From positions 1 through 27,701 of IMG/VR virus record IMGVR_UViG_3300025671_000404: DNA of 27,701 nt. One strand, given 5' to 3'. Origin of the DNA: a virus. Made by a program: the position numbers and the translations under genes. A model generated the notes under the pieces. It saw nothing but the letters and a program-made list of their open reading frames with translations. It did no database searches and had not been told where the DNA came from. Of the stretch, positions 1-11,192 are shown in pieces. Each line of letters begins with the position of its first letter. The first letter of the stretch is position 1.

Positions 1-1569
1 AGGATCATTCTTAGTAAACTCATAAGCTAAACATAGAGCTTCTTTGGTAATAGTTGCAGACAATGACTGAATAGGATAATTCTGACACTTTCTTCGGATC
101 TCATCAGATCTCATAAAAGTTTCTATATAGAATTTCCTATTAGTTATATCATCCATTAATATATACCTATCTTGCAAAGCTTTGTAGTATATACTATCAA
201 AATAAGGAGCTAATTTGTCATACGCTTTGTAGAATAAATCAATATAACTATCAGCCTCTTCTAGAGATACTCCTAAATTCTCAGAAAGAGCATAAGAAGT
301 AGATCCATAAGCTACTGCAAAGTTAACCATTTTACCTATAGGCCTATGTTTATCTCTGTCATAATCTTCTTTAAATATCTTCTTAGCAGTTTCTGCATGA
401 GCATCCTCTGATAGAAGAGTACTAATTAAGTTCTGATCATTAGCTCTATCAGCTAATACACACAACTCTTGTTTAGAATAATCACATACAAGATATCTTG
501 AACTTCCTAATTTCTTAGTATTCCAAGATTTTCTTAATGGACCTACTGTAATATTCTGTAAATTAGGGTTACTACAAGACATCCTACCAGTATTTACTAA
601 CTGATTAAAGTTAGGATGATATCTACCAGTAATAGGATTCTTGTACTTCTCTATAAAATTCTGACCATAAGTGCTAACTGATTTAGCTATCCCTTTATAT
701 TGTAAATATAAATCTACAAAAGGATGATCAGAATACTTTTTGATATTCTTCTCTGCTATAGATAATCCAGTTTTATGGTCTTTTGATTTTATGTCAAAGC
801 CATATGATTGAAACACTGGTATCACTTGCTTAGAAGAATCCCAATTAATGAGACATTCTCTTTCTATAATATCAAAGAATTGATATTTACCATCCTTCCA
901 AAGAAAAGAATTTAATTCTGCACGAATAGAATTCATTTTCTCTAAATTAGAATTGTAAACATCCATCCAATCTTCCTCATTAAGTATCATACCGTTAAGC
1001 TCCATTTCTGCAATAGCTTTAACAGTATTCATCTCTAACTCAAATAACTTCTGCATCCCTTTACCTTCACATCTTTTTAACTGTGAAAGATAAAGTCTGT
1101 TAAGATGTTTGATATCTTCTAATGCATAAGTTATTTGTTCTTCATCCATAATAACAGTATCTATGAAACTCTCTCTAATTGACTTATTCATCTTTATATC
1201 GAATAGTCTTTCTAAGACATCCCCCAAAGAATAAGTAAGCCTCTTAGAAGAATTAGTTAATAGCTTTTCTGCTATCATAGTATCATAGACATTTTCTAAT
1301 CTAATTCCTGTAGCTACATACAGTAATTTATAATCATATTTAATATTATGTCCGATACATAATTTATTAGATAACGCTTCCATGATTTCTACAGAAGGTT
1401 TTCCAAATATTATGTGCTGCTCATCTTCATTACCTATCTGTAAAGAGATGATTTCAGACAAATAAGGATCTAATCCTTCATTAGGATGGAAGTGCCCAAG
1501 ATATTTACCTCTTGCTTCCGTATCCAGGCAGATATAATCTTGCTCATTGATCCACTTTACTAAGTTCAT
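1..1569 (-). CDS. DNA polymerase, family A (PolA-like), with 3'-5' exonuclease; C-terminus cut by the window edge
   Basis: This is the replicative polymerase of the phage, and 523 codons are visible. The N-terminal DEDDy exonuclease has Exo I (D16-T-E18), Exo II (N75-x3-D79 in IGHNIKYD) and Exo III (Y148-x3-D152). The polymerase domain has motif A (CDYSKQEL, D363) and motif B/O-helix (R409, K413, F417, Y421 in RPIGKMVNFAVAYG). Motif C (HDE) must lie left of base 1. The ATG at 1569 is the first possible start, because a TAA codon precedes it directly in frame. It overlaps the end of the 44-residue gene by 26 bases, so the two are probably translated from one mRNA. Family A polymerases are one of the two polymerase types used by crAss-like phages. 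All visible catalytic residues are intact. Family assignment is secure. Confidence 0.95.
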   Translation of the reverse strand, partial: MNLVKWINEQDYICLDTEARGKYLGHFHPNEGLDPYLSEIISLQIGNEDEQHIIFGKPSVEIMEALSNKLCIGHNIKYDYKLLYVATGIRLENVYDTMIAEKLLTNSSKRLTYSLGDVLERLFDIKMNKSIRESFIDTVIMDEEQITYALEDIKHLNRLYLSQLKRCEGKGMQKLFELEMNTVKAIAEMELNGMILNEEDWMDVYNSNLEKMNSIRAELNSFLWKDGKYQFFDIIERECLINWDSSKQVIPVFQSYGFDIKSKDHKTGLSIAEKNIKKYSDHPFVDLYLQYKGIAKSVSTYGQNFIEKYKNPITGRYHPNFNQLVNTGRMSCSNPNLQNITVGPLRKSWNTKKLGSSRYLVCDYSKQELCVLADRANDQNLISTLLSEDAHAETAKKIFKEDYDRDKHRPIGKMVNFAVAYGSTSYALSENLGVSLEEADSYIDLFYKAYDKLAPYFDSIYYKALQDRYILMDDITNRKFYIETFMRSDEIRRKCQNYPIQSLSATITKEALCLAYEFTKNDP

Positions 1570-6464: not shown

Positions 6465-6482
6465 TTTTTTGTTTAAAAATAG

Positions 6483-6555
6483 CACCCTCTATTGGATTCG
6501 AACCAATGACCTACGGTTTAGAAGACCGTTGCTCTATCCACTGAGCTAAGAGGGT
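6483..6555 (-). tRNA. tRNA-Arg (anticodon UCU)
   Basis: A full 73-nt cloverleaf on the minus strand. The acceptor stem is ACCCTCT/AGAGGGT, D stem GCTC/GAGC with loop AGTGGATA, anticodon stem ACGGT/ACCGT with loop CTTCTAA (anticodon TCT), T stem ATTGG/CCAAT with loop TTCGAAT, and discriminator G. CCA is not encoded. It would read AGA, the dominant arginine codon of most genes in this window, so it probably supports phage translation. Confidence 0.95.
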
Positions 6556-6650: not shown

Positions 6651-6956
6651 CTATCCTCTAACGAAACCAGGAACGGATACAATCCATCCTTTCTCGTTTC
6701 TGATAGTTTCAGGATGTCCAGTAGCCGGAGCTACTAAATCCTTTCTATCAGAAGAAGATAGAACCATCGCTGATACGATGTACAAAGTGTCTTCCACAGG
6801 AGCTGGAACATTCTCCAACTCTCCGTATACAACACTACATACATCATTCTCAAACGAAGTAAAAGAAGTCCCCACTCTAGCTACAGAGCCAGATGGTTCG
6901 AATCTTCTACCATCGTTTAATACGATGGGGTGAGGTGTACAATTAATATATTTCAT
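6651..6956 (-). CDS. Hypothetical 'TPHP' phage protein, 101 aa
   Basis: The sequence pattern MKYINCTPHPIVLNDGRRFEPSGSVARVG...VPAPVEDTLYIVSAMV...RKDLVAPATGHPETIRNEKGWIVSVPGF matches a small, widely distributed phage/bacterial family of unknown function (N-terminal N-x-T-P-H-P, central S-G-x-V-A-R-V, Y-I-V-S-x-x-V, and a D-L-V-x-P before a conserved R-x-E-x-G). No catalytic role is known to me. Its leader has one of the three conserved pseudoknots (6984-7015), 27 nt before the start codon. A 7-bp hairpin CCATCGT/ACGATGG (6910-6928) overlaps the early coding region. Confidence 0.8.
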   Translation of the reverse strand: MKYINCTPHPIVLNDGRRFEPSGSVARVGTSFTSFENDVCSVVYGELENVPAPVEDTLYIVSAMVLSSSDRKDLVAPATGHPETIRNEKGWIVSVPGFVRG

Positions 6957-6983
6957 TTTTTGAAATATTTAATTGTTAAAAAT

Positions 6984-7015
6984 ACTCTACTTACTTAGGC
7001 GAGAGTTTTAGCCTA
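6984..7015 (-). promoter_or_regulatory. Conserved leader pseudoknot, copy 1
   Basis: Read on the minus strand: TAGGC (7015-7011), TAAA, ACTCT (7006-7002), C, GCCTA (7000-6996), AGTAAGT, AGAGT (6988-6984). TAGGC pairs with GCCTA and ACTCT with AGAGT in crossed order, giving an H-type pseudoknot with 5-bp stems. The linkers TAAA, C and the ending AAGT are the same as in copies 2 and 3, while the stems differ by paired changes. It lies 27 nt upstream of the start codon at 6956. Confidence 0.75.
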
Positions 7016-7558
7016 CCTTACAACAATTTAAGACCATTTGGATTTAACTTCAGGTCACTCATTTCTGAGCTTGTTGCCAACCTCCCAATTAAGGGAGGAA
7101 TTTATAAACATTTCTCTTTCTGTTGCAAGACTACACATACGCATACACGAGTGTCTTGACAACAGTTAAAGCCAAAGAGAGTGGCTCTCTCGGATTACAG
7201 GATAACCTAATACCCTGCTCTATAAACTACCCGCGATTTCGGGCTCCATATATGCCTCCGAAAGCATATACAGCGACTCTTCTTTATATAGTGTTCTAAG
7301 GAGAAAAAGAGTCGACTTCCTTCTTAGAACTTGGTCTATTTCTATAGCGCTGACCAGCGCTTACAAAATCATTTTCATGATTTTAGTATTTAGTGCTAGA
7401 CAGTGTTACTTTTCAGTAACACCATCTAACACAGTTCCTGTGTTCTATCAAAGAACACTTCTCCCCGAAGAAACGGCGGAAGGCAGTTTATCTGCCTACT
7501 ATTTATTTAACCCCATTACGGTACTAGACTCGAGCGGATATAGCTATCCTTGTCTGAA
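7016..7558 (-). ncRNA. Gene-free, hairpin-packed region; candidate structured RNA
   Basis: No ORF over about 40 codons is seen on the minus strand. Perfect stems follow one another: CCTCCC/GGGAGG (7081-7098); a 12-bp stem with one bulged A (7120-7131 with 7153-7165); CATATATGC-type stem near 7247; GTTCTAAG/CTTAGAAC (about 7292-7330); AGCGCT/AGCGCT (7346-7361); GTGTTACT/AGTAACAC (7403-7422, minus-strand loop GAAA); AACACAG/CTGTGTT (7428-7444) competing with GTGTTCT/AGAACAC (7440-7458); and AGGCAG/CTGCCT (7481-7497). Size, phage origin and nearness to a tRNA recall the large ornate RNAs (ROOL, GOLLD), but I see no specific sequence match. A plus-strand ORF (7377-7679) overlaps the end and is judged a chance frame. 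Confidence 0.45.
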
Positions 7559-7729
7559 TTACGACCGATCCACTGTGCTAGGTGGCACACTCACGTGGTT
7601 ATTAGCGCGAGTGATTGAATCTTTCCACACTTCTGCGCACACTTCTGCAGAAGAGAGACCAGTAACCAACTGGTCTTGACAGTTTTCTTTTAATAGAGTT
7701 CTACTGTTATATGAACTCAAACTTGCCAT
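7559..7729 (-). CDS. Possible small protein, 56 aa (low confidence)
   Basis: A minus-strand ORF starting MASLSSYNSRTLLKENCQDQ and ending VPPSTVDRS with TAA. It is on the same strand as all other genes of the block and is opposed by a plus-strand frame of similar quality (7377-7679). No domain, no leader pseudoknot. It contains the 8-bp hairpin AGACCAGT/ACTGGTCT (7656-7676). It may instead be part of the non-coding structured region. Confidence 0.25.
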   Translation of the reverse strand: MASLSSYNSRTLLKENCQDQLVTGLSSAEVCAEVWKDSITRANNHVSVPPSTVDRS

Positions 7730-7818
7730 TTACCCCTGACAAGACGCACGATTTATCGCCCTTTTTGGGGAGACAGTTATAAAGGTTATTCACCCTTATA
7801 ACTGCCTTGGTAGTCTCC
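7730..7818 (-). other. Structured spacer
   Basis: A 9-bp stem CAGTTATAA (7774-7782) with TTATAACTG (7796-7804) has an inner GGT/ACC pair. It is enclosed by GGAGAC (7769-7774) with GTCTCC (7813-7818). This gives a branched arm immediately next to the internal-loop hairpin at 7819-7870. No ORF. Confidence 0.5.
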
Positions 7819-7870
7819 TATATAGCTGCTATCCCTACCTACTACCATCAGTAGGACACATAGCTATATA
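7819..7870 (-). ncRNA. Trailer hairpin with conserved internal loop, copy A
   Basis: Outer stem TATATAGCT (7819-7827) with AGCTATATA (7862-7870), 9 bp. Inner stem CCTAC (7834-7838) with GTAGG (7851-7855). Between them is an asymmetry-free internal loop GCTATC (7828-7833) facing ACACAT (7856-7861); on the minus strand these read GATAGC and ATGTGT. Copy B at 8253-8309 has the same internal loop but different, still complementary, stems. It starts 10 bases after the stop codon of the 102-aa gene. Confidence 0.75.
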
Positions 7871-7880
7871 AGGTTGGAAC

Positions 7881-8189
7881 CTATTCTGCGAATACTAAGA
7901 CCGGAGTCTTTTCTTCTACATTTTCGGTTTCGTCATCTTCGAAATCGAAGACAGAAGCTCCTGCACACGTAGTGGTCAGGTTTTTACCGAAAATGTTCCA
8001 CCCACCTAAGTGAGTGATAAGTTCCTCTTCCTCGGAATCTATCCATCTGTCTGATGCGAGAGCATCAAACTCTAGATAGATTCTTCCCTCGAATTTCCAT
8101 TTCCCCCATTTGGGAGGAAATACTAGGTTCTCGTTCGTCGATATTTCTATCGACTCGAGGAAGAAGTTAATCTTCTGTTCTCTAGTCAT
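7881..8189 (-). CDS. Hypothetical protein, 102 aa, acidic
   Basis: An acidic protein (FPPKWGKWKFEGRIYLEFDALASDRWIDSEEEELITHLGGW..., C-terminal DFEDDETENVEEKTPVLVFAE) with several Trp residues and no known family. The amino-acid pattern looks like a real folded protein. Its mRNA is unusual: a conserved pseudoknot 25 nt upstream (8215-8243), a nested 9+5 bp stem inside the gene (8035-8083, with GATGC-GAGA-GCATC at the tip), GTCGATA/TATCGAC near the start, and the internal-loop hairpin copy A right after the stop. Confidence 0.7.
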   Translation of the reverse strand: MTREQKINFFLESIEISTNENLVFPPKWGKWKFEGRIYLEFDALASDRWIDSEEEELITHLGGWNIFGKNLTTTCAGASVFDFEDDETENVEEKTPVLVFAE

Positions 8190-8214
8190 TTATATGATTT
8201 AGAGATCAATAATG

Positions 8215-8243
8215 CCGGTACTTCAAGGAGACCGGTTTATCCT
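8215..8243 (-). promoter_or_regulatory. Conserved leader pseudoknot, copy 3
   Basis: Read on the minus strand: AGGA (8243-8240), TAAA, CCGGT (8235-8231), C, TCCT (8229-8226), TGAAGT, ACCGG (8219-8215). AGGA pairs with TCCT and CCGGT with ACCGG in crossed order. Linkers TAAA, C and ...AAGT match the other copies although both stems are different. It is 25 nt upstream of the start codon at 8189. Confidence 0.75.
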
Positions 8244-8252
8244 AATAGTCAG

Positions 8253-8309
8253 CCTACACAGTCGCTATCTCTATCTTACTATTATTGATAGAACACATAA
8301 CTGTGTAGG
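8253..8309 (-). ncRNA. Trailer hairpin with conserved internal loop, copy B
   Basis: Outer stem CCTACACAGT (8253-8262) with ACTGTGTAGG (8300-8309), 10 bp. Inner stem TCTATC (8270-8275) with GATAGA (8287-8292). The internal loop CGCTATC (8263-8269) facing ACACATA (8293-8299) contains the same GCTATC and ACACAT as copy A. It begins about 20 bases after the stop codon of the 57-aa gene and ends just before pseudoknot copy 3. Confidence 0.75.
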
Positions 8310-8329
8310 GAAAGGGCCTCAAAGTTTTC

Positions 8330-8503
8330 CTAGAAAGATGTTCTTTCTAAGAGTTCTTTGAGTACGGCTTTTTGGACTATCTGCCACTGAATCTTTTTAA
8401 TGTCAGCAGCAGGTCCTTCGCCGAACCCTTTTTCCAAGTCTTTGTTAAGACCGACTAAATAGTCAGTCAACTCAGACTTAGTAAGACTCTTCAAATACTC
8501 CAT
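8330..8503 (-). CDS. Hypothetical protein, 57 aa
   Basis: A short helical ORF, MEYLKSLTKSELTDYLVGLNKD...ADIKKIQWQIVQKAVLKELLERTSF, ending in TAG. It is supported by its position: pseudoknot copy 2 sits 27 nt upstream of the ATG and internal-loop hairpin copy B follows the stop. A nested stem (CTCAAAG/CTTTGAG with inner TAGAAAGA/TCTTTCTA, 8318-8362) covers the stop codon. No family recognised. Confidence 0.7.
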   Translation of the reverse strand: MEYLKSLTKSELTDYLVGLNKDLEKGFGEGPAADIKKIQWQIVQKAVLKELLERTSF

Positions 8504-8530
8504 TTATGGATATTTTTAGAGTTAATAATA

Positions 8531-8561
8531 CCTCTACTTACGTAGGTGAGAGGTTTAACCT
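8531..8561 (-). promoter_or_regulatory. Conserved leader pseudoknot, copy 2
   Basis: Read on the minus strand: AGGT (8561-8558), TAAA, CCTCT (8553-8549), C, ACCT (8547-8544), ACGTAAGT, AGAGG (8535-8531). AGGT pairs with ACCT and CCTCT with AGAGG in crossed order. Same linkers as copies 1 and 3. It is 27 nt upstream of the start codon at 8503 and directly follows the stop of the 76-aa membrane protein gene. Confidence 0.75.
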
Positions 8562-8569
8562 TTTTTTGG

Positions 8570-8818: not shown

Positions 8819-8844
8819 TCTCCCATTACTTACGTAACAGGAGA
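8819..8844 (-). promoter_or_regulatory. Leader hairpin related to the conserved pseudoknots
   Basis: TCTCC (8819-8823) pairs with GGAGA (8840-8844). The minus-strand loop contains TACGTAAGTA, shared with pseudoknot copy 2. The upstream strand lacks the TAAA linker and a clear first stem, so this is a divergent or simplified version. It is 18 nt upstream of the start codon at 8800. Confidence 0.5.
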
Positions 8845-9070
8845 TGGTTTTTTGACTTTTAGCTACCATGCAGTCCATACACTCTCTTTTAGAGAGCTTT
8901 TATTCTGAGAGTTTAACGTCTTCTCCAGGTACTTTTTCGACGGAAACCAATGCTTTGGTTTCTAATTTTTTTGTAAACTAATGGCATTGGGATATATTTT
9001 TTCAACCAATGCTTTTTTAAATGTCGGAGACACACACCACACCTATTGGTGTGATGTGGTTTCCTGAGGG
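8845..9070. other. Non-coding spacer with hairpins and T tracts
   Basis: No convincing ORF. It contains an 8-bp hairpin GAAACCAA/TTGGTTTC (8943-8962), a 7-bp stem GCATTGG/CCAATGC (8984-8990/9006-9012) followed on the plus strand by six T, and CACACC-tatt-GGTGTG (9038-9053) just after the stop of the 168-aa gene on the minus strand. The segment ACCAATGCTTT occurs twice (near 8946 and 9005). One or more of these may end the transcript of the 168-aa gene. Confidence 0.45.
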
Positions 9071-10721: not shown

Positions 10722-11192
10722 ATGAAATTATTAAAAAACTTTTTAGCAGCTATATTTGGGCTGTTAATTTTATTACCTATGTCAATAGTAGGAGTATTAG
10801 CTAACTTAGTGATCTCTATTAGAAATAAAAGACTAGGTAAAACTCCTAAGAAAGTAAGAGATGTAGTTAAATTTGGATTATTATCTGGATATGACTTCTT
10901 CTTGGGAATACTTTATAGTATTGGAATTTACTCTAGTGTTTTTCTAAATGTAACTTCTGGTCTCTTAGTTAGAGAACTATTCACTAATAAAATAGATAGC
11001 GATCATTTATTCGGTAAAGTAGGAATTACTACTTCTATGGCTCTTGGTAGAGCAAGATTAATGGGTGATCTTACCACTAAAGGAGATGATCTTCTTTGGG
11101 TTATTGAAAAGATTCTAATAGATGATAATCATTTTGAGGAGTCTTATTCTAAATATTTAGATAGTGGAAAAGTTAGTGGTTTTAAAGGATAA
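10722..11192 (+). CDS. Membrane protein, 156 aa
   Basis: The start at 10722 (MKLLKNFLAAIFGLLILLPMSIVGVLANL) is preferred over 10683, because it follows the preceding stop by one base and gives a normal N-terminus. There is one strong membrane segment (residues 7-30) and a second, weaker one around 55-85 (FGLLSGYDFFLGILYSIGIYSSVFLNV), then a soluble C-terminal helical region. It may be a holin or another membrane factor of the lysis/late module; no family is recognised. Confidence 0.7.
   Translation: MKLLKNFLAAIFGLLILLPMSIVGVLANLVISIRNKRLGKTPKKVRDVVKFGLLSGYDFFLGILYSIGIYSSVFLNVTSGLLVRELFTNKIDSDHLFGKVGITTSMALGRARLMGDLTTKGDDLLWVIEKILIDDNHFEESYSKYLDSGKVSGFKG

Follow-up and report, generated by a model that had tools for sequence, protein, structure and literature searches.

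Why should one RNA fold recur in front of several small genes of a single phage operon? The window analysed here, a virus record of 27.7 kb, raises this question in the leaders of three minus-strand genes, for which the original prediction had proposed pseudoknots built to one plan. The window terminase is about 30% identical to the terminases of Fipvunavirus and Crassvirales and the gene order endolysin–terminase–portal–head protein is that of FpV4, so that the label 'crAss-like' is a fair one. Known hosts of the crAss-like group are Bacteroidota. The three genes belong to a minus-strand operon of small genes that diverges from the late genes, a position which suggests that the operon is early.

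Three leader pseudoknots of one architecture

Coordinates and sequence place H-type pseudoknots where they had been predicted, on the minus strand at 6984–7015 (copy A, leader of the gene starting at 6956), 8531–8562 (copy B, gene starting at 8503) and 8215–8244 (copy C, gene starting at 8189). Copy B begins 7 nt past the stop codon of the gene before it and copy C 8 nt past a hairpin element, E1, described below. Copy A reads TAGGC-TAAA-ACTCT-C-GCCTA-AGTAAGT-AGAGT, with 27 nt to the AUG at 6956; copy B reads (A)AGGT-TAAA-CCTCT-C-ACCT-ACGTAAGT-AGAGG, with 27 nt to the AUG at 8503; and copy C reads (T)AGGA-TAAA-CCGGT-C-TCCT-TGAAGT-ACCGG, with 25 nt to the AUG at 8189. Both the linkers (UAAA, C and AAGU) and these distances are as first reported. 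The claim that every stem difference is compensated needs one correction: it holds for nine core pairs, that is, the four inner pairs of stem S1 and all five pairs of S2, which are present in every copy including the fourth one described below, but not for the outer (fifth) S1 pair, which is formed in A and in the fourth copy and is absent in B (A-A) and C (U-U).

Chance does not readily produce this arrangement. A strict descriptor (S1 of at least 4 bp, UAAA, a 5-bp S2, C, and a third linker ending in AAGU) matched three times in the window and in none of 1500 Markov shuffles, although AAGU directly before the 3' strand of S2 is not specific when taken alone. In a stacking-energy scan of the window leaders, from which the gene of copy C was masked by an overlapping plus-strand ORF, copies A and B each beat 40 of 40 shuffles. 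The original prediction knew of no described RNA class with this fold, and no Rfam family, riboswitch classes included, reached its threshold for the pseudoknot; the only match in the window at the gathering threshold was a tRNA-Arg at 6483–6555. The strongest hit below threshold at a pseudoknot, that of the tRNA-like-structure pseudoknot TLS-PK6 (RF01101) at copy B, scored 20.6 bits against a gathering threshold of 44 (E = 0.64), and was treated as chance. Three conventional roles were rejected: programmed frameshifting, as all copies are intergenic leaders that lack a slippery-site-in-frame setting; intrinsic termination, as S2 is short; and, for copy A, translational coupling, as about 860 nt upstream of it hold no convincing gene.

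A fourth copy in a distant phage

Viral and bacterial contig collections were searched with a degenerate pattern in which the linkers were fixed. Among about 260 loop-pattern matches listed, one further element has all nine core pairs, and it lies in L089 (IMGVR_UViG_3300034418_013261), the only contig of 141 with all pseudoknot pairs. This copy, D, reads TAGGT-TAAA-CCAGT-C-ACCTA-TGCAAGT-ACTGG at 2905–2874, and its AUG follows 30 nt on, at 2843; over the four copies the pseudoknot is thus 30–32 nt long and lies 25–30 nt upstream of the AUG. None of the 105 matches in bacterial contigs was fully paired, a relaxed viral pattern added nothing among the matches listed, and a strict S2-specific DNA pattern had no match. 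L089 is a distant phage: its terminase is 25% identical to that of the window, and it is absent from the 80 relatives nearest the window.

Across the four copies, four of ten pseudoknot pairs have changed on both sides while the linkers stayed constant. The covariation score of 0.567 (shuffled mean 0.167) was reached in none of 500 shuffles, and slid controls gave values near zero. No similarity is detectable, from one phage to the other, among the proteins encoded after the leaders; the common element is therefore the RNA, and it is the RNA on which selection acts. The case for a selected RNA structure is accordingly strengthened by a copy that covaries around the same linkers before an unrelated gene. 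Covariance model R2 scored copies A, B and C at 46.5, 47.7 and 41.2 bits, and models run over about 160 crAss-like loci (2 Mb) found the pseudoknot and the hairpin element solely in the window and L089, with no new copy in 41 further loci (model R1). Matches to the pseudoknot model below 18 bits, such as window 10834–10860, lack S2. The condition first named for refutation, an absence of further copies in related phages, is therefore avoided through one phage only; about 160 relatives carry no new copy.

Pseudoknots of other kinds may be present in these relatives. On their minus strands we counted 11 candidate leader pseudoknots 15–35 nt before an AUG at or below -16 kcal/mol, where 1.1 were expected. 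In such candidates of other phages the start region is mostly open and most lack the start-codon hairpin described below. We claim no wide class, since the candidates in relatives include terminators, and we regard them as a lead only. Separately, candidate pseudoknots of another type were observed in minus-strand leaders of L089 (2571, 1827, 1597 and 1282) and of contig L237 (gene 3280). Their forms are AGTC-CAAA-ACCT-..-GACT-ATAAACTTC-AGGT and S1-CT-S2-T-S1'-NNAAAC-S2', the latter common to L089 and L237 with the stems changed.

A predicted hairpin at the start codon

The near-constant spacing had been taken as a sign of translational or stability control. The figures of 25–27 nt stand, but the stretch is not a free spacer: its predicted accessibility is low, and it forms mostly the 5' arm of a second hairpin. 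This hairpin is predicted for every one of the four leaders; it begins 4–8 nt after the pseudoknot, beyond an A/U-rich linker, and the AUG falls within its apical loop or 3' arm. We noticed these hairpins post hoc, while checking the accessibility of the spacer, and the idea that the pseudoknot merely keeps the spacer open was rejected on the same low accessibility. On the minus strand of the window the hairpins lie at 6939–6976 for leader A (16 bp, -11.4 kcal/mol) and 8486–8522 for leader B (14 bp, -11.1 kcal/mol), both with the A of the AUG in the apical loop and the U and G paired, and at 8176–8208 for leader C (12 bp), where the whole AUG is paired, as it is in the 18-bp hairpin of D.

How stable these hairpins are depends on the stretch folded (-8.5 to -13.1 kcal/mol). 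In a common 60-nt window hairpins A and D reach z-scores of -5.1 and -3.6, whereas B (-1.7) and C (-1.9) stand only modestly above shuffles. Fifteen other leaders from the same two phages gave no value below -1.7, and leaders of relatives show no enrichment of start-codon hairpins. Compared pairwise, the copies differ on both sides in 6–10 of 12–16 pairs with pairing kept. Since the 3' arm encodes part of unrelated proteins, structure is conserved here where sequence is not. Both domains are predicted in four of four copies, each keeping its pairing while the stem sequences change, and the presence of a start-codon hairpin in every leader makes translational control, one of the two forms of control first proposed, more likely.

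A further leader, that of the 8800 gene, has a 10-bp hairpin with a GUAA loop (8820–8850, minus strand), about 20 nt before the AUG.

A conserved hairpin element between genes

The second element common to the two phages, E, is a 57-nt hairpin. Its outer stem (~11 bp) and inner stem are separated by a conserved internal loop, where UAUGUG faces GAURGC, and it ends in a loop containing UAGUA. Both window copies are on the minus strand: E1 (8253–8310) lies 19 nt past the stop codon of the 8503 gene and E2 (7817–7873) lies 7 nt past that of the 8189 gene; the L089 copies are at 2971–2915 and 2654–2598. Plain blastn joins the element between the two phages (E of 4e-7 and 2e-6), with E1 among the sequences matched to L089. 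Model scores are 76–84 bits, seven of 23 pairs have changed on both sides among the four copies, and the distance from stop codon to element is 7–20 nt in each of the four cases. The element stands directly upstream of two of the four pseudoknots, C and D, at a gap of 8–9 nt, and of neither A nor B; downstream of E2 comes a long structured RNA, and downstream of the second L089 copy a different leader. The pattern also occurs in two contigs besides L089, in chance-like matches inside coding sequence that we set aside. No match was found in a search, run without a positive control, of 395 genomes from the phylum of G001 (a Crocinitomicaceae record).

The genes behind the leaders

The genes behind copies B (8330–8503, minus strand, 57 aa) and C (7881–8189, minus strand, 102 aa) have no family match in PHROGs or Pfam. 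The gene behind copy A (6651–6956, minus strand, 101 aa) matches PHROGs 21731/30542, of unknown function, and may encode a Crn4-type ring nuclease: a TPH motif (T7, H9) falls, in alignment, on the T and H conserved among Crn4 ring nucleases, R86 lies near the expected place of the conserved Crn4 arginine, and phmmer gives a weak match to the Crn4b of PDB 9r7b (E = 0.18). Judged by this likeness of sequence, the product is possibly a phage anti-CRISPR enzyme. A single-sequence AlphaFold2 model had a pLDDT of 35.5, too low to be of use, and the protein as query had no match in viral contigs.

Several other features of this part of the genome may be recorded. A tRNA-Arg(TCT) lies at 6482–6555 on the minus strand, with a minus-strand counterpart in the same genome part of contigs L012, L060 and L083; when the left part of the window was compared with phage records for DNA similarity, the tRNA was all that appeared among the matches listed. 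Between 7016 and 7815 (minus strand), about 800 nt hold no convincing gene and are predicted to fold far better than shuffles (z-scores of -9.1 for 7016–7560 and -5.0 for 7560–7890 in this gene-poor stretch). This region has no Rfam match and no similar phage DNA beyond chance, and is possibly a large structured noncoding RNA. In an 89-kb phage contig, L013, ARAGORN reports a tmRNA gene at 629–999 (minus strand) with the tag VDAQGVLQMFPTVKLEIAA.

Comparison with known translational operators

The closest described phage case is the gene 32 operator of T4, T2 and RB69, an H-type pseudoknot of about 28 nt that lies 5' of the translation start and is followed by an A/U-rich stretch, unstructured before the AUG and bearing UUAAA/UAAA repeats (PMC535899). 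A review of T4 describes this pseudoknot as possibly the only viral example in translational autoregulation (PMC3014915). The elements described here are alike in size and place (30–32 nt, 25–30 nt before the AUG), but differ in that their A/U-rich stretch leads into a predicted start-codon hairpin in four of four leaders, and in having at least three target genes where gene 32 is one. The T4 operator precedes a gene for the ssDNA-binding protein that binds its pseudoknot, whereas none of the three genes in the window matches an ssDNA-binding family (PHROGs, Pfam) and the product of the gene starting at 6956 resembles Crn4. The folded stretch before the AUG and the absence of ssDNA-binding genes argue against membership among gene 32 operators.

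Phage operators that hold the start region in a hairpin are known from MS2 replicase and T4 gene 43. The present leaders share this feature but not a conserved hairpin sequence for a repressor to read, so that recognition would have to reside in the pseudoknot. Protein-regulated pseudoknots at a translation start are also known from the E. coli rpsO (S15) and alpha-operon mRNAs; there, however, the start site lies within the pseudoknot, whereas here the two domains do not overlap.

A possible mechanism and its alternatives

On balance we lean towards reading each leader as a bipartite cis-acting RNA that would control the translation of the small gene behind it, at least three such genes lying in one operon. 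The pseudoknot, with its fixed linkers and covarying stems, would be the recognition part, and the hairpin of 12–18 bp with the start codon in its apical loop or 3' arm the output part. With the hairpin closed, the AUG would be masked and translation low, which is why we take translation to be the controlled step. A factor reading the pseudoknot, which could be the 30S subunit itself or a protein of the phage or of the host ribosome, may tip the balance between closed and open forms, and such a shift would place unrelated genes under one control. The invariance of the linkers suggests that the pseudoknot is the part that is read, or else that they make the knot's own tertiary contacts. A classic switch is not indicated, as we saw no conserved way in which the two domains could pair with each other instead. 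More weakly, element E might be a site of processing or a 3' end, leaving the next gene with a short leader of its own.

The pieces may instead be arranged around mRNA processing or stability, which we hold to be unlikely, though of some weight: an RNase III-like nuclease would cut at or near E, the E stem guarding the upstream 3' end and the pseudoknot the new 5' end, with only indirect effects on translation. The place of E 7–20 nt past stop codons, the start of pseudoknots C and D 8–9 nt past E and the conservation of both elements between the two phages would suit such a cassette, and the layout resembles that of T7 early mRNA, which has intergenic RNase III hairpins. However, pseudoknots A and B have no E directly upstream, E2 and the second L089 copy precede other structures, and a stability element needs no start-codon hairpin in a fixed place. 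Chance likeness, or a DNA-level repeat such as a duplicated promoter region, is the least probable reading and is largely refuted. Copies A and B, 71% identical over 72 nt, could by themselves be a duplication, but C and the L089 copy differ more while keeping all nine core pairs, and the shuffles yielded no such element.

A small pseudoknot aptamer with the start-codon hairpin as expression platform would make the leader a metabolite riboswitch, and fixed linkers with covarying stems would fit the small H-type aptamers with translational output, preQ1-I and SAM-II. We consider this very unlikely, as no Rfam riboswitch matched, no switch by conserved alternative pairing was seen, and a common metabolite is less likely for unrelated genes. 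An insulating leader, or one whose pseudoknot helps to place or load the 30S subunit, in either case with no regulator, is improbable to a lesser degree. It would suit the near-fixed distance from pseudoknot to AUG and Bacteroidota hosts, which, as one study describes (PMC6847099), have no Shine–Dalgarno sequences and tune initiation by mRNA structure, and strong candidate pseudoknots 15–35 nt before the AUG exceed shuffle expectation in relatives. A start codon inside a hairpin is, however, the opposite of an open start region, and the excess seen in relatives, which takes in terminator-like hairpins, has no backing from covariation.

Returning to translational control by a bipartite leader, the cassette is kept between two phages whose genes behind it differ. 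This allows a broader reading, which we put forward tentatively and with more doubt than the leader itself, in which E, pseudoknot and start-codon hairpin form a modular cassette that brings unrelated small genes, perhaps anti-defence ones among them, into a phage-encoded post-transcriptional regulon; their translation would be set jointly by a single factor that reads the pseudoknot. The sample is of four copies in two phages known from genome fragments. The leaders are short, well-defined RNAs, open to direct tests by probing and reporters. What they present looks like an undescribed phage control of protein synthesis, seen in two genomes so far; it would add a crAss-like case to the phage pseudoknots that lie at translation starts, and one that stands before several unrelated genes rather than a single gene.
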